Of a DNA stretch of 9,459 nt, positions 3,577 to 9,459 are shown in pieces. The stretch comes from Bathymodiolus azoricus thioautotrophic gill symbiont. Lineage in GTDB: Bacteria; Pseudomonadota; Gammaproteobacteria; PS1; Pseudothioglobaceae. Below the pieces are notes generated by a model, which was not told the DNA's origin, ran no database searches, and saw nothing but the letters and a program-made list of their open reading frames with translations. Location: NCBI RefSeq assembly GCF_001298715.1, contig NZ_CDSC02000398.1, positions 1 to 9,459 of the forward strand, in the 5' to 3' direction. Every line of letters starts with the position of its first letter. Position 1 is the first letter of the stretch. Made by a program: the position numbers and the translations under genes.

Positions 3577-5331
3577 ATGATGAGAACACATTATTGTGGA
3601 GAATTAAACAAAGAAAATATTGGTCAAACTGTTGACATCTGTGGCTGGACAAATCGTCGCCGTGACCATGGTGGCGTTATCTTTTTGGATGTGCGTGATA
3701 AGCGTGGCATCGTGCAAGTGGTCATCAATCCAGATAACAAGGATTTTGCTTTGGCTGAAACTATTCGCAACGAGTTTGTATTAAAAATTACCGGCGAAGT
3801 GATTGCCAGAGAGGATAACTTAATCAACACCAAACTTGCCACAGGTGAAATTGAAATTGTTGCTAAGCAAATTGAGATTCTTAACACTTCTAAGCCAGTG
3901 CCCTTTCAAATTGATGCCGTAGACACCTCAGAAGAAGTGCGTCTTAAGTATCGTTTCTTAGATTTGCGTACCGATGTGATGCAACAGCGCATGAGACTAC
4001 GCTCGAAAGTAACCCACTATATGCGTGAGTTTATGGACAATCATGACTTCTTAGATATTGAAACGCCATTTTTAACCAAAGCAACACCCGAAGGTGCACG
4101 AGACTATTTAGTGCCTTCGCGTACTTACCCTGGTGAGTTTTTTGCCCTACCACAGTCTCCACAACTGTTTAAGCAGTTGTTGATGATGTCGGGTTTTGAG
4201 CGTTATTACCAAATCGTAAAATGCTTTAGAGACGAAGACCTGCGTGCTGATCGTCAACCAGAATTCACTCAACTTGATGTTGAAACTTCATTCATGAATG
4301 AAAATGAAATTATGCAGATGATGGAAGAAATGACACGAGGGCTATTTAAGTCAGTCATTGATGTAGATTTGGGAGGTAAATTCCCAACCATCACTTATGC
4401 CGATGCCATGGATAAATACGGCATTGACCGCCCTGATATGCGCATCCCATTAGAGATTGTTGGTATTGATGATCTACTAAGTAACATTGAATTTAAAGTG
4501 TTTGCCGAGCCCGCTAAAAATCCAGCCTCACGCGTCGGCGCAATGAAAATACCTAACGGCGCCACTATCTCACGCAAGCAAATTGATAATTACACTAAAT
4601 TTGTTAGTATTTATGGCGCCAAAGGTTTGGCTTATATTAAGATGAATGACGATGGCCCAGCCTCACCAATTTTAAAATTCTTAGGGGCAGAAGTCACACA
4701 AAGCATTATTGATAAAGTTGATGCAAAAACAGGCGATATTATTTTCTTCGGTGCAGATAAAATAAAAATTGTGAATGAGGCCTTGGGTAATTTGCGTGAA
4801 AAAATTGCCAAAGATTTGGATATCTACACTGATAAATGGGCGCCGATTTGGGTGGTTGACTTCCCTATGTTTGATACCAATGATGATGGCTCTTTAAGCG
4901 CTATTCATCACCCATTCACTGCGCCAAGTGTTGATGCTACCACTTTAGAGTCCACCGCCACTACCGCCCTATCTCGTGCTTATGACTTGGTCATTAATGG
5001 CTCTGAAGTCGGTGGTGGCTCAATTCGTATTCACCAAGTTGAAATGCAACAAACCGTATTAAAATTATTGGGCATTAGCGATGAAGAAGCACAAGACAAA
5101 TTTGGCTTTTTGCTTAATGCACTTGAATACGGTTGCCCGCCACATGGTGGTATGGCATTCGGCCTAGACCGTTTGGTCATGATTATGGCACACTGCGATT
5201 CTATTCGTGATGTAATCGCTTTTCCTAAGACCCAAACAGCAGCTTGCCTGTTAACCAACGCTCCTGCACCCGTGCCAAATAAGGTGCTAAGAGAGTTAAG
5301 TGTTAAGGTAAGTTTGCCTAAAAAAGATTAG
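3577..5331 (+). CDS. aspS: Aspartyl-tRNA synthetase, bacterial type
   Basis: This class II synthetase of 584 residues charges tRNA with aspartate. Visible parts are an N-terminal OB-fold anticodon-binding domain (about 15-105), motif 1 near 158-180, the QSPQ substrate loop at 193-196, motif 2 as [18 protein letters not shown] from 217, the GAD insertion (about 300-410), and motif 3 GLDRL at 529-533. The length matches bacterial AspRS (about 590). Residue 31 is histidine in RRRDHGG, the position reported to be His in the tRNA-Asn-charging (non-discriminating) Pseudomonas enzyme and Leu in E. coli. AAGGA at 3564-3568 serves as ribosome binding site. Two ATGs are adjacent; the first gives the MMR start seen in related enzymes. 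The stop lies 41 bases before the ATPase gene. Confidence 0.98.
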
Positions 5332-5372: not shown

Positions 5373-6686
5373 ATGAAACTGACAATAAAAAACATTGGTG
5401 TTATTGAAGAAGCAGATATTGAATTATCTGGTTTGACCGTTATTGCTGGTGAAAACGATAGTGGCAAAAGTACTGTTGGTAAATTAATGTTTTCTATTAC
5501 TAAGGCGATTGGAAAATACAAAGATGAAATAAAGGAGAACAAAGAAAACGATATTGAAGAAGCGGTAGAACATATTTATTTTTCTATTAAGAAAGATGTG
5601 TTTAGAGATGAAAAACGCAGATTCAAAGAATCAAAAAAATCGTTTCGCTTGCATAACAGCTATAGAGAATTATTTCACCCACGCTATTTTATAGATGAAG
5701 TTAATGATAATGGCGTTGAGGCGATAAACAGCAGAATAGAATACTTAAAAAGAGAAGATATTTATAACGATAAAATTGAGAAATTATTTACTGATTTACA
5801 AAATATTGTTGAACGAGACGACGATACAAACTCTGCCATTAAAAGAGCCTTTACAAAATTAATCTACTCGGAATTCAAAGGTGAGATTGGTAATAAAAAA
5901 TCAAATAAATCAACTATAAAAATTATTGAAGGAAATAATGAAATTTTAAATATAGAGTTAAATCAAAACAAAGTTACAAAGTTTGACCCCAAAGATGAAT
6001 TTTATTTTAATGATAGCATTATTATAGAAACACCAATGATTTTAAATTTTAGAGATTCTATTAGAGATTCTAAGTCATTATTTGAAAAACGAAAAAATAG
6101 AGGACGATATTTAGGCAGAGCAAACATAGCTTTTCACATTAAGGACTTAGAGGTTAAATTAAGAGAATCTGGGTATGAGGCAGCGTTATTTTTAGAAAAT
6201 GATGATTTATACAAAAAAATATCAGCAATTATTAATGGAAACATAAAATATCAAAACGATCAAAGTGAATTTGTTTATTTTAAAGATGACGAACAACATA
6301 ATATTTTAAATGTTGCTAGTGGTATTAAATCATTTGGCATATTGCAAATGTTGTTATCGGGAGATTTTATCAAAGCAAGGACTTTGGTAGTTTTGGATGA
6401 ACCAGAGGTGCACTTACATCCAAATTGGCAGCTAAAATACGCCGAAATTATCACACTTTTGGTTCAAAATAATAGGAATATTTTGGTAACAACACACAGC
6501 CCTTATATGGTGGAAGCCTTAGAAAGATATGCTGAAAAATACAAAATAGAAGAAAAAACACATTTTTACTTAGCCAAAGAAGGGGTTATTAAATCAAAAA
6601 ACAATAACAAAACTTTGTCAGAAATAGCGTCCAAACTCTCAGAGCCCTTCTCTGTTTTCGATGAGATGGATGCAGAAAAATTATAA
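5373..6686 (+). CDS. AAA15/OLD-like ABC-type ATPase, accessory
   Basis: The 437-residue protein is an SMC/Rad50/OLD-type ATPase of the AAA15/AAA21 group. The Walker A motif GENDSGKST covers residues 26-34, a signature-like NVASGIKSFG lies at 313-322, Walker B plus D-loop LVVLDEPEVHLHP at 338-350 (Asp342, Glu343), and the switch histidine is His375 in TTHSP. Between Walker A and the signature is a charged, mostly helical insert of about 250 residues, too short for a Rad50 coiled coil, with IIETPMILNF at 217-226. The protein ends about 60 residues after the switch histidine, so there is no TOPRIM domain as in OLD or Gabija GajA. It overlaps the next gene by one base (TAATG), so the two products probably act together. 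The gene is visibly more AT-rich than aspS. A role in phage defence is inferred from family and context; the specific system is not recognised. Confidence 0.88.
   Translation: MKLTIKNIGVIEEADIELSGLTVIAGENDSGKSTVGKLMFSITKAIGKYKDEIKENKENDIEEAVEHIYFSIKKDVFRDEKRRFKESKKSFRLHNSYRELFHPRYFIDEVNDNGVEAINSRIEYLKREDIYNDKIEKLFTDLQNIVERDDDTNSAIKRAFTKLIYSEFKGEIGNKKSNKSTIKIIEGNNEILNIELNQNKVTKFDPKDEFYFNDSIIIETPMILNFRDSIRDSKSLFEKRKNRGRYLGRANIAFHIKDLEVKLRESGYEAALFLENDDLYKKISAIINGNIKYQNDQSEFVYFKDDEQHNILNVASGIKSFGILQMLLSGDFIKARTLVVLDEPEVHLHPNWQLKYAEIITLLVQNNRNILVTTHSPYMVEALERYAEKYKIEEKTHFYLAKEGVIKSKNNNKTLSEIASKLSEPFSVFDEMDAEKL
6049..6072 (+). repeat. Exact 12-bp tandem duplication inside the ATPase gene
   Basis: TTAGAGATTCTA occurs twice back to back (6049-6060 and 6061-6072). 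Being a multiple of three, it keeps the frame and produces the tandem peptide RDSIRDS at residues 227-233. It lies just after the IIETPMILNF segment. An exact repeat inside coding sequence suggests recent replication slippage, though it could be a long-standing part of the protein. Confidence 0.75.
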
Positions 6687-7228
6687 TGAGTGTAAAAAAC
6701 AAGTTTCAAGCCGAATATTCACAATATTTAGAAAACTTTAAGGAACTGAGCTATGACAACAGAAACAAGCGATCTTTGTGTCAGAATACAACGCATCAAT
6801 ACTATAACTTTGATAAAATCGTTAAAGATAGAAGTAACAAGTCTACTCCCGCTTCACCTGATACCCTTATTTTTAAAAAAAATAAAATATATTGCGTAGA
6901 ATTCAAAAATTCATTTTTTAACCAAATCAGTGCATCAAATATTAAAAAAAAACTTGAAAACGGACATCAAGTTTTATCAGCTATTTTTAAAGAATTAGAT
7001 TTACAACTTAAAGATTATCAACTTATTTTTTGCGTCGTATGCAAGGGATTTGACGAAAATGAAGCAGAAAAGCAAAGATGGTCAGAAATACGCCGTGGAA
7101 TTGAATCCGAAATTCGATTTGACTTAAAACAGTACATAGGCGTGTATTGTGACGACATTCTTACCAAGGATATTGATTTCTTTAGAGAGCAATTTATTAA
7201 AAAAATAAATAAAAACCTACCTTGCTAA
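6686..7228 (+). CDS. Small PD-(D/E)XK nuclease-like partner of the ATPase
   Basis: I do not recognise this 180-residue protein by family name. Residues 59-74 read as a D, a short beta-hairpin and then ExK: Asp59 in SPDT, followed by Glu72 and Lys74 in YCVEFKNS. That spacing, with hydrophobic strands on both sides, is the pattern of the PD-(D/E)XK nuclease core. A helix follows with Gln95 in NGHQVL, a place where this superfamily often has a conserved Lys or Gln. The rest is charged with no membrane segment or signal peptide. Its ATG overlaps the ATPase stop by one base, implying translational coupling and near-equal synthesis. The likely role is the effector nuclease of an ATPase-gated pair; this is inference from motif and operon. 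It is as AT-rich as the ATPase gene. Confidence 0.72.
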
Positions 7229-7229
7229 A

Positions 7230-8174
7230 ATGATAACGCAAATAAAACAACTCTTAAAACAAAAAAACGCCGTATTAGTAGCACACTACTATGTGAGTGG
7301 TGATTTACAAGATTTAGCACAAGAGACAGGTGGCATTGTTTCAGACAGTTTAGAGATGGCACGATTTGGACAGAACTGTGATGCAGATACCATTATTGTT
7401 GCAGGGGTTAAATTTATGGGGGAGACCGCTAAAATCCTCTCTCCTGAAAAAAGGGTTCTAGTACTTGATGAACAAGCCACTTGCTCGTTAGATGAAGATT
7501 GCCCGATTGAAGAATTTTCCAAATTTTGTGATGCACACCCTGATAGAAAAGTGGTGGTATATGCCAACACCTCAGCCGCTGTTAAGGCGCGCGCTGATTG
7601 GGTGGTTACTTCTGGTAGTGCACTCACAGTCGTAAAACACTTACATGAAAATGGTGAAAAAATCCTCTGGGCACCTGACAAACATTTAGGGCGTTATGTG
7701 CAAAATAAAACTGATGCTGACATGCTACTTTGGCAAGGTGCTTGCGTAGTACATGAGAGATTTAAAGCAGATGCTTTAAGCGCACTTAAGGTCAAACACC
7801 CTGAGGCTTGCATCTTAGTGCATCCAGAATCACCACAAGCCGTGGTAGAATTGGCTGATGTGGTAGGCTCAACCACCGCACTTATTAATGCTGTTAAAGA
7901 CAGAGACGAACAAACTTTTATTGTGGCAACTGACAATGGTATTTTTCATAAAATGCATCAAGTTGCACCCAGTAAAACACTGCTTGAAGCGCCGACTATG
8001 GGGGAAGGTGCAGATTGTGAATCGTGCGCACATTGTGAGTGGATGGCAATGAACAGTTTAGAAAAATTATTAAGTGTTTTACAAACGGGTGAGAACGAGA
8101 TTAAAATTGACAAAAACACCTCGCAACAAGCACAACATTCAATACAAAAATTACTAGATTTTACGGAGAAATAA
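7230..8174 (+). CDS. nadA: Quinolinate synthase A
   Basis: NadA condenses iminoaspartate with dihydroxyacetone phosphate to make quinolinate in de novo NAD synthesis, using a 4Fe-4S cluster. The three expected cluster cysteines are Cys85 (QATCSL), Cys172 (QGACVVH) and Cys269, the last of the CESCAHC motif (263-269). Other hallmarks are VAHYY near residue 18, [10 protein letters not shown] at 38-47, [18 protein letters not shown] from 111 and HPESPQA from 198. At 314 residues it lacks roughly 28 N-terminal residues present in the E. coli enzyme, but shorter forms exist and the catalytic core is complete. A longer start is impossible because an in-frame TAA lies at 7206-7208. It begins one base after the nuclease stop and has no evident ribosome binding site. 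yebC follows after one base. Confidence 0.97.
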
Positions 8175-8175
8175 A

Positions 8176-8916
8176 ATGGCAGGACACAGTAAATGGCACA
8201 ACATCCAACACCGAAAAGGCGCTCAAGACGCTAAACGCGGTAAGATTTTTACCAAATTAATCAAAGAAATTGTCATTGCCGCCAAAGCAGGCGGTGGCGT
8301 AATAGAAAACAATCCGTCTCTTAGAATGGTGATTGATAAGGCTTTAGCCGCCAATATGAAGCGCGACACCATTGAAAGTGCAGTCAAACGAGGCAGTGGC
8401 GACCTTGACGGTGATAACTATGAGGAAGTGCGTTACGAAGGTTACGGGCTGGGTGGTACAGCGATTATGGTCGACACACTCACAGACAATCGCAACCGCA
8501 CTGTGGCGGATGTGCGTCACGCATTCTCTAAGCATGGTGGCAACTTAGGCACTGATGGTTCGGTGGCTTATCTGTTCAACAAGCAAGGTTTTATTAGTTT
8601 TTCCTCTGGTGATGAAGACCAAATTATGGAAGTCGCACTAGATGCAGGCGCACAAGATGTGATTAGCAACGAAGATGGCTCAATTGATGTGGTTACCACG
8701 CCTGAGGATTTTTTCACTGTGAAAGATGCACTGGCAGATAGTGGGCTTGAGTCCAGCCATGCTGAAGTAACCATGGAGCCTGCTAACCGTGTTGAGCTTA
8801 ACCTTGGTGATGCGGAAAAATTCATGAAACTGATTGAGCGCCTAGAAGACTTAGACGACACGCAGGAAGTGTATCACAATGCAGATATTTCTGATGAAGT
8901 AATGGCGCAGTTGTGA
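8176..8916 (+). CDS. yebC: YebC/PmpR family protein (TACO1 homologue)
   Basis: This 246-residue cytosolic protein is a full-length YebC. It opens with the family signature [20 protein letters not shown] (2-21) and contains [27 protein letters not shown] from 46, and [20 protein letters not shown] from 89. Members were long described as DNA-binding transcriptional regulators (PmpR); more recent work connects YebC and mitochondrial TACO1 to translation, easing ribosome stalling at proline-rich stretches. GGAG at 8165-8168, in the tail of nadA, gives a well-spaced ribosome binding site. In many gammaproteobacteria yebC is followed by ruvC, ruvA and ruvB; here it is instead overlapped by a methyltransferase remnant (GTGA at 8913-8916), so the ancestral order appears interrupted. 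Confidence 0.97.
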
Positions 8917-9290
8917 CCCCTTATTTTCAAGCAAAATCAGTTAAATTATTTTTAGGTGACAGTTTGGAATTGTTAAAAAAAATCCCCAAAGAAAGTGTAG
9001 ATATGATTTTTGCCGATCCACCTTATAATTTATCCAATGGTGGCTTTACCTGCCATAATGGCAAAATGGTTAGCGTTAATAAAGGAAAATGGGACAAAAG
9101 CAAGGGCATTAAAGAGGATTTTAAATTTCATAATAGCTGGATAAAGGCTTGTAAAAAAGTATTAAAACCCAATGGCAGTCTATGGATTTCTGGCACTTAT
9201 CATTCTATTTATTTGTGTGGTTTTGCTTTGCAAAAACAAGGCTGGCATATTGTTAACGATATTTCTTGGTTAAAATCTAATGCAGCGTAA
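8913..9290 (+). pseudogene. Truncated DpnA/HinfI-like adenine DNA methyltransferase
   Basis: The 125-residue product matches the first half of a beta-class N6-adenine DNA methyltransferase resembling M2.DpnII (DpnA) or M.HinfI. Visible features are GDSLELLKKIP at 15-25, catalytic motif IV DPPY at 35-38, NGKMVSVNKGKWDKSKG at 49-65, ILKPNGxxWIS-like sequence at 84-93, and NDISWLKSNAA at the end. In this class the SAM-binding FxGxG motif lies in the C-terminal half, which is absent: the frame closes at TAA exactly where family members continue into PNLSCR. Neither other forward frame resumes the missing part, so this looks like a deletion or recombination junction rather than a point frameshift. 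It should be inactive alone. The start is a GTG overlapping the yebC stop; an in-frame TGA at 8895-8897 rules out a longer form. Confidence 0.85.
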
Positions 9291-9459
9291 AAAATTATTA
9301 GATCTTTTAACTGAATATTATAATCAACAAGGTGGTAGGACTTTTTCTCTTAAACAGTTGAATAAATATTATCAAGATTATAGTATTATAGGGATTAATG
9401 GAAACACGCCCCAAGCAACAATAAGAAGACTATTACAAGAATTAAGAAACAATAATATG
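9280..9459 (+). CDS. Start of a winged-helix, restriction-enzyme-like ORF (partial)
   Basis: Sixty codons are visible from an ATG at 9280 before the window ends. The peptide has a basic helical start (MQRKKLLDLLTEYY), then GGRTFSLKQLNKYY and NTPQATIRRLLQELRNNN. A GGRTF-type turn followed by a recognition helix with TIRRLLQELR resembles the winged-helix DNA-binding domain seen in DpnI-like, Dam-replacing-protein-like and some other type II restriction enzymes; this is family recollection, not a search result. An in-frame TAA at 9271-9273 means it starts at this ATG or is an interior fragment of a gene joined here. It overlaps the methyltransferase remnant by 11 bases and lacks a ribosome binding site. 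Beside a methyltransferase, a restriction endonuclease is the leading guess; a transcriptional regulator is possible. Confidence 0.55.
   Translation, partial: MQRKKLLDLLTEYYNQQGGRTFSLKQLNKYYQDYSIIGINGNTPQATIRRLLQELRNNNM

Follow-up and report, generated by a model that had tools for sequence, protein, structure and literature searches.

Two-gene systems in which an OLD-type ABC ATPase is paired with a small nuclease have been described only recently. The nearest tested one is WonAB from the WASA-1 prophage of V. cholerae, in which a single operon of two genes encodes an OLD-type ABC ATPase (WonA) and a PD-(D/E)XK-type nuclease (WonB). In the passages of PMC12137116 drawn on here, protection was lost in the WonA mutants K34, R182, E300 and H333 and in the WonB mutant K71, and overproduced WonB was lethal only when WonA was present and ATPase-active. 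Genomic DNA is described as staying intact and translation as apparently blocked, and the authors suggest ribosomal or transfer RNA as the target (PMC12137116). The same text places WonAB in a larger uncharacterised family together with PD-T4-4 and 'OLD-ABC ATPase + novel REase'; the latter occurs in 0.96% of the genomes examined and is stated to cover every WonAB homologue detected. A 2026 survey describes pairs of an OLD-ABC ATPase with an HNH, PD-(D/E)XK or PIN nuclease around BREX, in 594 taxa (PMC12839542). Here we describe a gene pair from the thioautotrophic gill symbiont of Bathymodiolus azoricus (genome of 1.86 Mb in 515 contigs). Both genes lie on contig NZ_CDSC02000398.1, whose 9,459 nucleotides we refer to as the window. 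The pair is a real, functional-looking two-gene system of this recently described kind. What surprised us is its breadth, its apparent absence from the PADLOC nuclease models and its housekeeping setting, not a new principle.

All features given below are on the forward strand of the window. The first gene (5373..6686, stop included) encodes an OLD-type ABC ATPase of 437 residues and the second (6686..7228) a predicted PD-(D/E)XK-type nuclease of 180 residues. Base 6686 is common to both open reading frames (ORFs): the TAA of the ATPase ends there and the ATG of the partner begins there. By this overlap we infer that the two genes form one operon. An earlier description of this DNA from its letters alone (the sequence-only reading) had given the same coordinates and the same one-base overlap.

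The ATPase carries the Walker A motif GENDSGKST (residues 26-34, 5448..5474), the signature-like motif NVASGIKSFG (residues 313-322, 6309..6338), a Walker B motif with a trailing HLHP stretch (residues 338-350, 6384..6422) and the switch residue His375 (6495..6497). We found G26, N28, G31, K32, S33, D342, E343 and H375 invariant in 64 aligned ATPases and also in 63 more diverse ones; in the latter P344, E345, L348, H349 and P350 were invariant as well. G317 and K319 of NVASGIKSFG were invariant and N313 and F321 nearly so, and the motif probably takes the role of the ABC signature. The predicted fold matches the heads of SMC, Rad50, PtuA and AriA, with several of the Rad50 and SMC matches being DNA-bound structures. 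A Pfam scan at E up to 1 revealed no TOPRIM or other nuclease domain in the ATPase, and the chain ends 62 residues past His375. With its Walker A motif, Walker B glutamate, switch histidine and predicted SMC/Rad50-like head, the protein has the features of an OLD-type ABC ATPase. An OLD nuclease proper or a Gabija GajA was rejected because the same scan found no C-terminal TOPRIM. Several PADLOC ATPase models were matched by all 63 of the diverse ATPases. The sequence-only reading had placed Walker A at residues 26-34, Walker B at 338-343, which ends in D342/E343, and the switch histidine at 375, and had seen no TOPRIM or nuclease domain; all of this agrees with our results.

For the small partner we identified five residues that are invariant in 73 broadly sampled sequences at a mean column identity of only 19%. 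These are Asp43 (6812..6814), Asp59 (the D of PD, 6860..6862, just before the predicted strand 60-64), Glu72 and Lys74 of the Glu72-Phe-Lys74 stretch (ExK, 6899..6907, inside the predicted strand 67-74) and Lys89 (6950..6952, in the predicted helix 83-103, after the core strands). Asp59, Glu72 and Lys74 were also invariant in 26 close sequences. The predicted fold matches PD-(D/E)XK nucleases, the best by Z being the DNA enzymes N.BspD6I, R.BspD6I2, FokI and BsmI. From this fold and the five invariant residues we predict that the partner is a PD-(D/E)XK nuclease and that these residues are putatively catalytic. The core of Asp59, Glu72 and Lys74 proposed from the letters alone thus stood, though neither Asp43 nor Lys89 had been listed.

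The cap-snatching endonuclease family PF15518 (L_protein_N), which forms the N-terminus of certain L polymerases of RNA viruses, scored 26.8 bits against residues 29-106 (6770-7003 of the window), with a gathering cut-off of 27. It was precomputed on eight of the 26 close homologues, and at E 0.01 it matched two of the 73 broad nucleases, the window's own protein being included in both counts; the Foldseek match had an E of 0.01 and a TM of 0.24. No single PADLOC model was matched by more than 4 of the 73 nucleases at E 0.01 (best E 2.8e-05), so that this nuclease branch does not appear to be represented in PADLOC-DB 2.0.0.

To follow the pair across genomes we kept the best 80 of at least 410 loci from an ATPase profile scan of named genomes. 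Among them are Gamma- and Betaproteobacteria, Campylobacterota, Bacteroidota, Bacillota and further groups. A first scan of genome contigs with the window nuclease alone had returned no relative; the later scan with the ATPase profile worked. With a nuclease profile rebuilt over four rounds, in which adjacency was used and E-values are relative to 2,998 ORFs, a homologous nuclease ORF was found downstream of the ATPase in 75 of the 80 loci. It was at least 150 residues long in 72 of them; two (L019, L072) were fragments and one (L029) was cut by the contig end. Three of the five loci without a partner (L023, L030, L038) stop at a contig edge, one (L013) has the ATPase alone and one (L086) another ORF. 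The fairer number comes from the first-pass profile, which was built by sequence search alone without the use of adjacency. All 62 of its matches among the 2,998 ORFs of 91 loci, the window's genus included, adjoin an ATPase ORF, which indicates a coupling beyond chance; all 91 loci had been retrieved with one or the other of the two proteins, and three regions are represented twice (L001/L008, L010/L012, L011/L015). Within the 80 loci alone this profile found the partner in 57. We also found that the distances between ATPases and between nucleases correlate across 63 pairs (Mantel r 0.762, with 0 of 2000 permutations as high), which points to a shared history of the two proteins and not to contact. 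The conserved co-occurrence that the sequence-only reading had put forward as a check was therefore borne out.

Some loci depart from this layout. In a sponge symbiont (L013, 5001-6281) the ATPase is 63% identical to that of the window and no nuclease ORF lies downstream. In Persephonella (L086) a 266-residue ORF (1370-2170) follows the ATPase; it matched nothing in Pfam or PADLOC and may be another kind of partner or just a neighbour without relation to the ATPase. In four Campylobacterota loci (L016, L041, L062, L076) two to four ATPase ORFs of the family stand side by side, and some of these have a nuclease ORF of their own.

We compared the pair with WonAB on the features described for it. 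Common to both are the gene order, with the ATPase before the PD-(D/E)XK nuclease, the OLD-type ABC motifs, a small effector with a key lysine (K71 in WonB, K74 in the window nuclease) and rarity among genomes. They differ in several respects: WonB is given as 16.1 kDa (PMC12137116) and the window nuclease has 180 residues, WonAB resides in a prophage whereas the window pair lies between housekeeping genes, and the Walker B glutamate is residue 300 in WonA but 343 in the window ATPase, which is thus longer before that glutamate. No family named WonAB occurred in the PADLOC or NCBIfam match tables for the window proteins. The same domain pairing defines 'OLD-ABC ATPase + novel REase' as it is outlined by the citing papers (Krishnan et al., cited in PMC12137116 and PMC12409358). 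Its Anaerovibrio lipolyticus exemplar was not found by name in a protein search from the partner in locus L057, for which 120 of the 135 matches were listed, most of them nameless. Locus L057 is from Centipeda periodontii, which carries a pair of the window family and which we take to belong to the same family as Anaerovibrio or to a neighbouring one.

PD-T4-4 of E. coli is similar on the ATPase side, as the window ATPase matches PD-T4-4_A models with 87.5 and 65.4 bits, and the PD-T4-4 partner is listed as PD-(D/E)XK in PMC10952713. For the window nuclease there was no PADLOC match to PD-T4-4_B up to E 1, and hhalign gave a probability of 5.6% (E 0.0068, only 3 sequences); the rebuilt nuclease profile gave 15.9 bits (E 2.9e-05) to a single PD-T4-4_B member. 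Membership in PD-T4-4 was therefore rejected on the nuclease. The best PADLOC match of the window ATPase was HEC-02A with 102.5 bits, where the models span 337-338 positions compared to 437 residues here. HEC-02B was the only PADLOC match of the nuclease, and a marginal one (15.1 bits, E 0.0044, residues 59-114; hhalign probability 5.8%, E 0.0066, 4 sequences). HEC-02 is a candidate system in PADLOC-DB, and a literature search turned up no paper on it. Septu, PARIS and the retrons Ec78/Ec83, with their PtuA and AriA ATPases, share the head fold of the window ATPase. However, the Septu partner PtuB is an HNH protein and the PARIS partner AriB is described as a TOPRIM protein, whereas the window partner is of the predicted PD-(D/E)XK type. 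At E up to 1 it showed neither HNH nor TOPRIM in Pfam and neither PtuB nor AriB in PADLOC, and both Septu and PARIS were rejected on these grounds.

On the features compared, the class of an OLD-type ABC ATPase with a PD-(D/E)XK nuclease fits the pair. The claim of the sequence-only reading that the pair matched none of the known systems is out of date, since WonAB, OLD-ABC ATPase + novel REase and PD-T4-4 share the pairing. The rest of its interpretation survived in part: an OLD/ABC-type ATPase, a PD-(D/E)XK-like partner, a two-gene unit and defence as the best reading were retained, and novelty and proximity to defence islands were not.

The setting of the pair was studied first within the genus. 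The upstream flank is aspS (3577..5331), named from its own sequence and not by the Pfam scan, and the downstream flank is nadA (7230..8174, Pfam NadA 350.8 bits), which begins after a gap of one base behind the nuclease stop. nadA is present in 11 of the 12 genomes of the genus, with only a fragment in one; besides the window we took nine nadA regions, G001 and G004 being left out. The order aspS, pair, nadA occurs in the window and in L105-L107, and aspS is directly followed by nadA in L108-L113, so the pair is present in 4 of the 10 regions and absent from 6. The guanine-cytosine (GC) content of the pair is 0.295-0.317 in the four genomes that carry it, compared to 0.41-0.43 for aspS and nadA (in the window 0.295 against 0.417 and 0.411). 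The pair is thus a low-GC insertion between the housekeeping genes aspS and nadA. Between L105-L107 and the window the flanking proteins are 77-96% identical, the ATPases 57-68% and the nucleases 42-60%. The ratio of nonsynonymous (dN) to synonymous (dS) divergence lay at 0.08-0.18 in the ATPase and at 0.09-0.34 in the nuclease, and in most comparisons the synonymous sites were close to saturated; dN of the pair was well above that of the flanking genes. Low ratios together with high divergence indicate that the pair is constrained but divergent or replaced, a pattern that would be expected of a conflict gene.

Several insertion sites recurred among the 80 loci. A glyQ-like cluster comprised 14 neighbours, 13 of them downstream and all in Campylobacterota, and we observed a purE-like gene upstream of the pair in 10 loci and a map-like gene upstream in 7; these names derive from Pfam tallies of a sample and from inspection by eye. 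The flanking genes ran in the direction of the pair in 62 of 70 cases upstream, 57 of 66 downstream and 47 of 61 on both sides. For the aspS control the counts were 20/29, 24/30 and 15/29 (one of the 31 control loci had no intact aspS ORF). The co-directional flanks of the pair are a tendency only, as the counts include shared ancestry (14 loci with the glyQ-like neighbour).

The pair also occurs on mobile elements. A tblastn search with the ATPase returned one phage and seven plasmid records, three of the eight being inspected. On a mobilisable Klebsiella plasmid of 5.9 kb (L116, 2362-4327) the pair is accompanied by a RelE/ParE-type toxin and a NadS-family gene, which make up a toxin-antitoxin pair, and by replication and mobilisation genes; it is also found on a phage contig from human faeces. 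The rebuilt profile recognised the nuclease ORFs of both (E 9e-13 and 6e-36, respectively). The ORF downstream of the ATPase in L114 shows a D...ExK pattern on visual inspection, but it gave no match to the nuclease profile at E 1.

Within the bacterial class of the symbiont the pair is rare. At E 1e-40 the ATPase profile matched 4 of 369 genomes of that class, the window's own included. Two matches approached family level, one with 474 bits and the other with 396 bits and two in-frame stops; the others (164-178 bits) form a second family. Of 58 related genomes, the window's own among them, 4 hold the nuclease, all of them inside the genus. The window genome itself holds a second pair of an ATPase and a small nuclease-like protein from another family (contig C332; L132, 1489-2892 and 2849-3322; 157 residues, VDYIE...LIELKD). 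Its nuclease-like protein aligned with the window nuclease at an hhalign probability of 30%. By eye this pair is flanked by hemE- and trpA-like genes, and another genome (G002, L130) has the same arrangement.

We then contrasted the neighbours of the pair with those of aspS in the same 31 genomes, using random samples of 140 of 222 and 140 of 248 neighbouring ORFs, respectively. The loci stem from 35 with long flanks chosen among the 80, of which four (L015, L026, L042, L065) were dropped as they had no usable control region. ORFs above 700 residues, ORFs below 100 residues and relatives of the pair were left out, and the upper cut may hide large defence genes. At E 1e-15 the pair neighbours gave 25 PADLOC model rows with at most two members each and the aspS neighbours 28 rows with at most five members each among the matches listed (25 of the 28 rows); the tally counts members per model, so distinct proteins are not separable. 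The sampled pair neighbours were thus no richer in PADLOC matches than the aspS neighbours. Unexpectedly, we found no defence-island habit, and the proximity to defence islands that had been proposed as a check was not borne out in these genomes.

We consider it likely that the pair is a WonAB-like phage-defence system in which the ATPase would sense infection and switch on the nuclease, so that the cell is stopped before phage are made. What we observed in its favour are the motifs, the predicted folds, the invariant putative catalytic residues, the adjacency and correlated history of the two genes and an insertion that varies in presence and absence. Signs of mobility (the low GC content, the sites without the pair and the plasmid and phage copies), the dN/dS values with their raised dN and the precedent of WonAB also count in its favour. 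By analogy with WonAB, the ATPase would sense infection and dimerise in an ATP-dependent manner, it would be complexed with the nuclease and gate it through ATP hydrolysis, and the activated nuclease would abort growth before phage production, which would make the outcome of defence abortive. As the target, RNA of the translation machinery seems preferable to DNA; this is the least certain step. A bolder version is speculative and in our view doubtful. Here the pair would belong to an uncatalogued, widespread branch of OLD-ATPase/nuclease systems, spreading outside defence islands by single insertions that run in the direction of the housekeeping genes around them (aspS–nadA, purE–glyQ, map) and missed by guilt-by-association screens, with the nuclease acting as a cap-snatching-like RNA endonuclease that stops translation upon phage sensing.

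An unlikely alternative, and the one proposed by the sequence-only reading, is a restriction-like defence in which the ATPase clamps invading DNA like the heads of Rad50 and SMC, the nuclease cuts that DNA and the cell survives. The match of the ATPase head to Rad50 and SMC, in several cases DNA-bound, the DNA enzymes among the best nuclease matches and a truncated DNA methyltransferase ORF 1.7 kb downstream in the window would all suit it. However, WonAB is described as leaving genomic DNA intact (PMC12137116), the methyltransferase also stands beside yebC in G010, where the aspS–nadA site lacks the pair, and no restriction gene was recognised among the repeated neighbour clusters, which were named by eye. 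We regard as improbable that the pair is a toxin-antitoxin-like addiction module with no dedicated anti-phage role, a selfish insertion among housekeeping genes whose ATPase holds a toxic nuclease in check. The overlap of the two genes, their single insertions beside housekeeping genes and a presence that varies between species of one genus are what such a module would show, but WonA is reported to be required for the toxicity of WonB and not to neutralise it (PMC12137116), and invariant ATPase motifs in a protein of 437 residues would suit a sensor better than a plain antitoxin. A housekeeping DNA-repair pair like Rad50/Mre11 could be imagined from the SMC/Rad50-type head and the position among housekeeping genes, but it is hardly credible and was rejected on patchiness (nuclease in 4 of 58 relatives, ATPase of near-family strength in 2 of the 369 genomes from the same bacterial class, the window genome being counted in each), and the GC content and divergence of the pair are unlike those of its flanks.

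If the preferred reading of a WonAB-like defence pair holds, the branch has practical value. The systems are so recent that trigger and target of WonAB and its kin are unsettled. From several phyla the branch adds 72 pairs whose nuclease ORF is intact, together with a putative catalytic set, evidence of co-inheritance and small portable operons, and these pairs are good material for finding trigger and target. The housekeeping setting in place of defence islands suggests that island-based discovery undercounts such immunity.

The genes around the pair are housekeeping genes: besides aspS, the Pfam scan assigned LemA, an M48 peptidase, an M24 peptidase (map), DUF502, nadA and yebC. The methyltransferase ORF (8913-9290, 125 residues) overlaps the stop of yebC, and its Pfam match is confined to the first part of the domain. 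The matching stop-to-stop frame in G010 (L113) has 266 codons, and the window copy therefore looks truncated. The next ORF (9280-9459) showed weak helix-turn-helix matches (DpnI_C, HARE-HTH).
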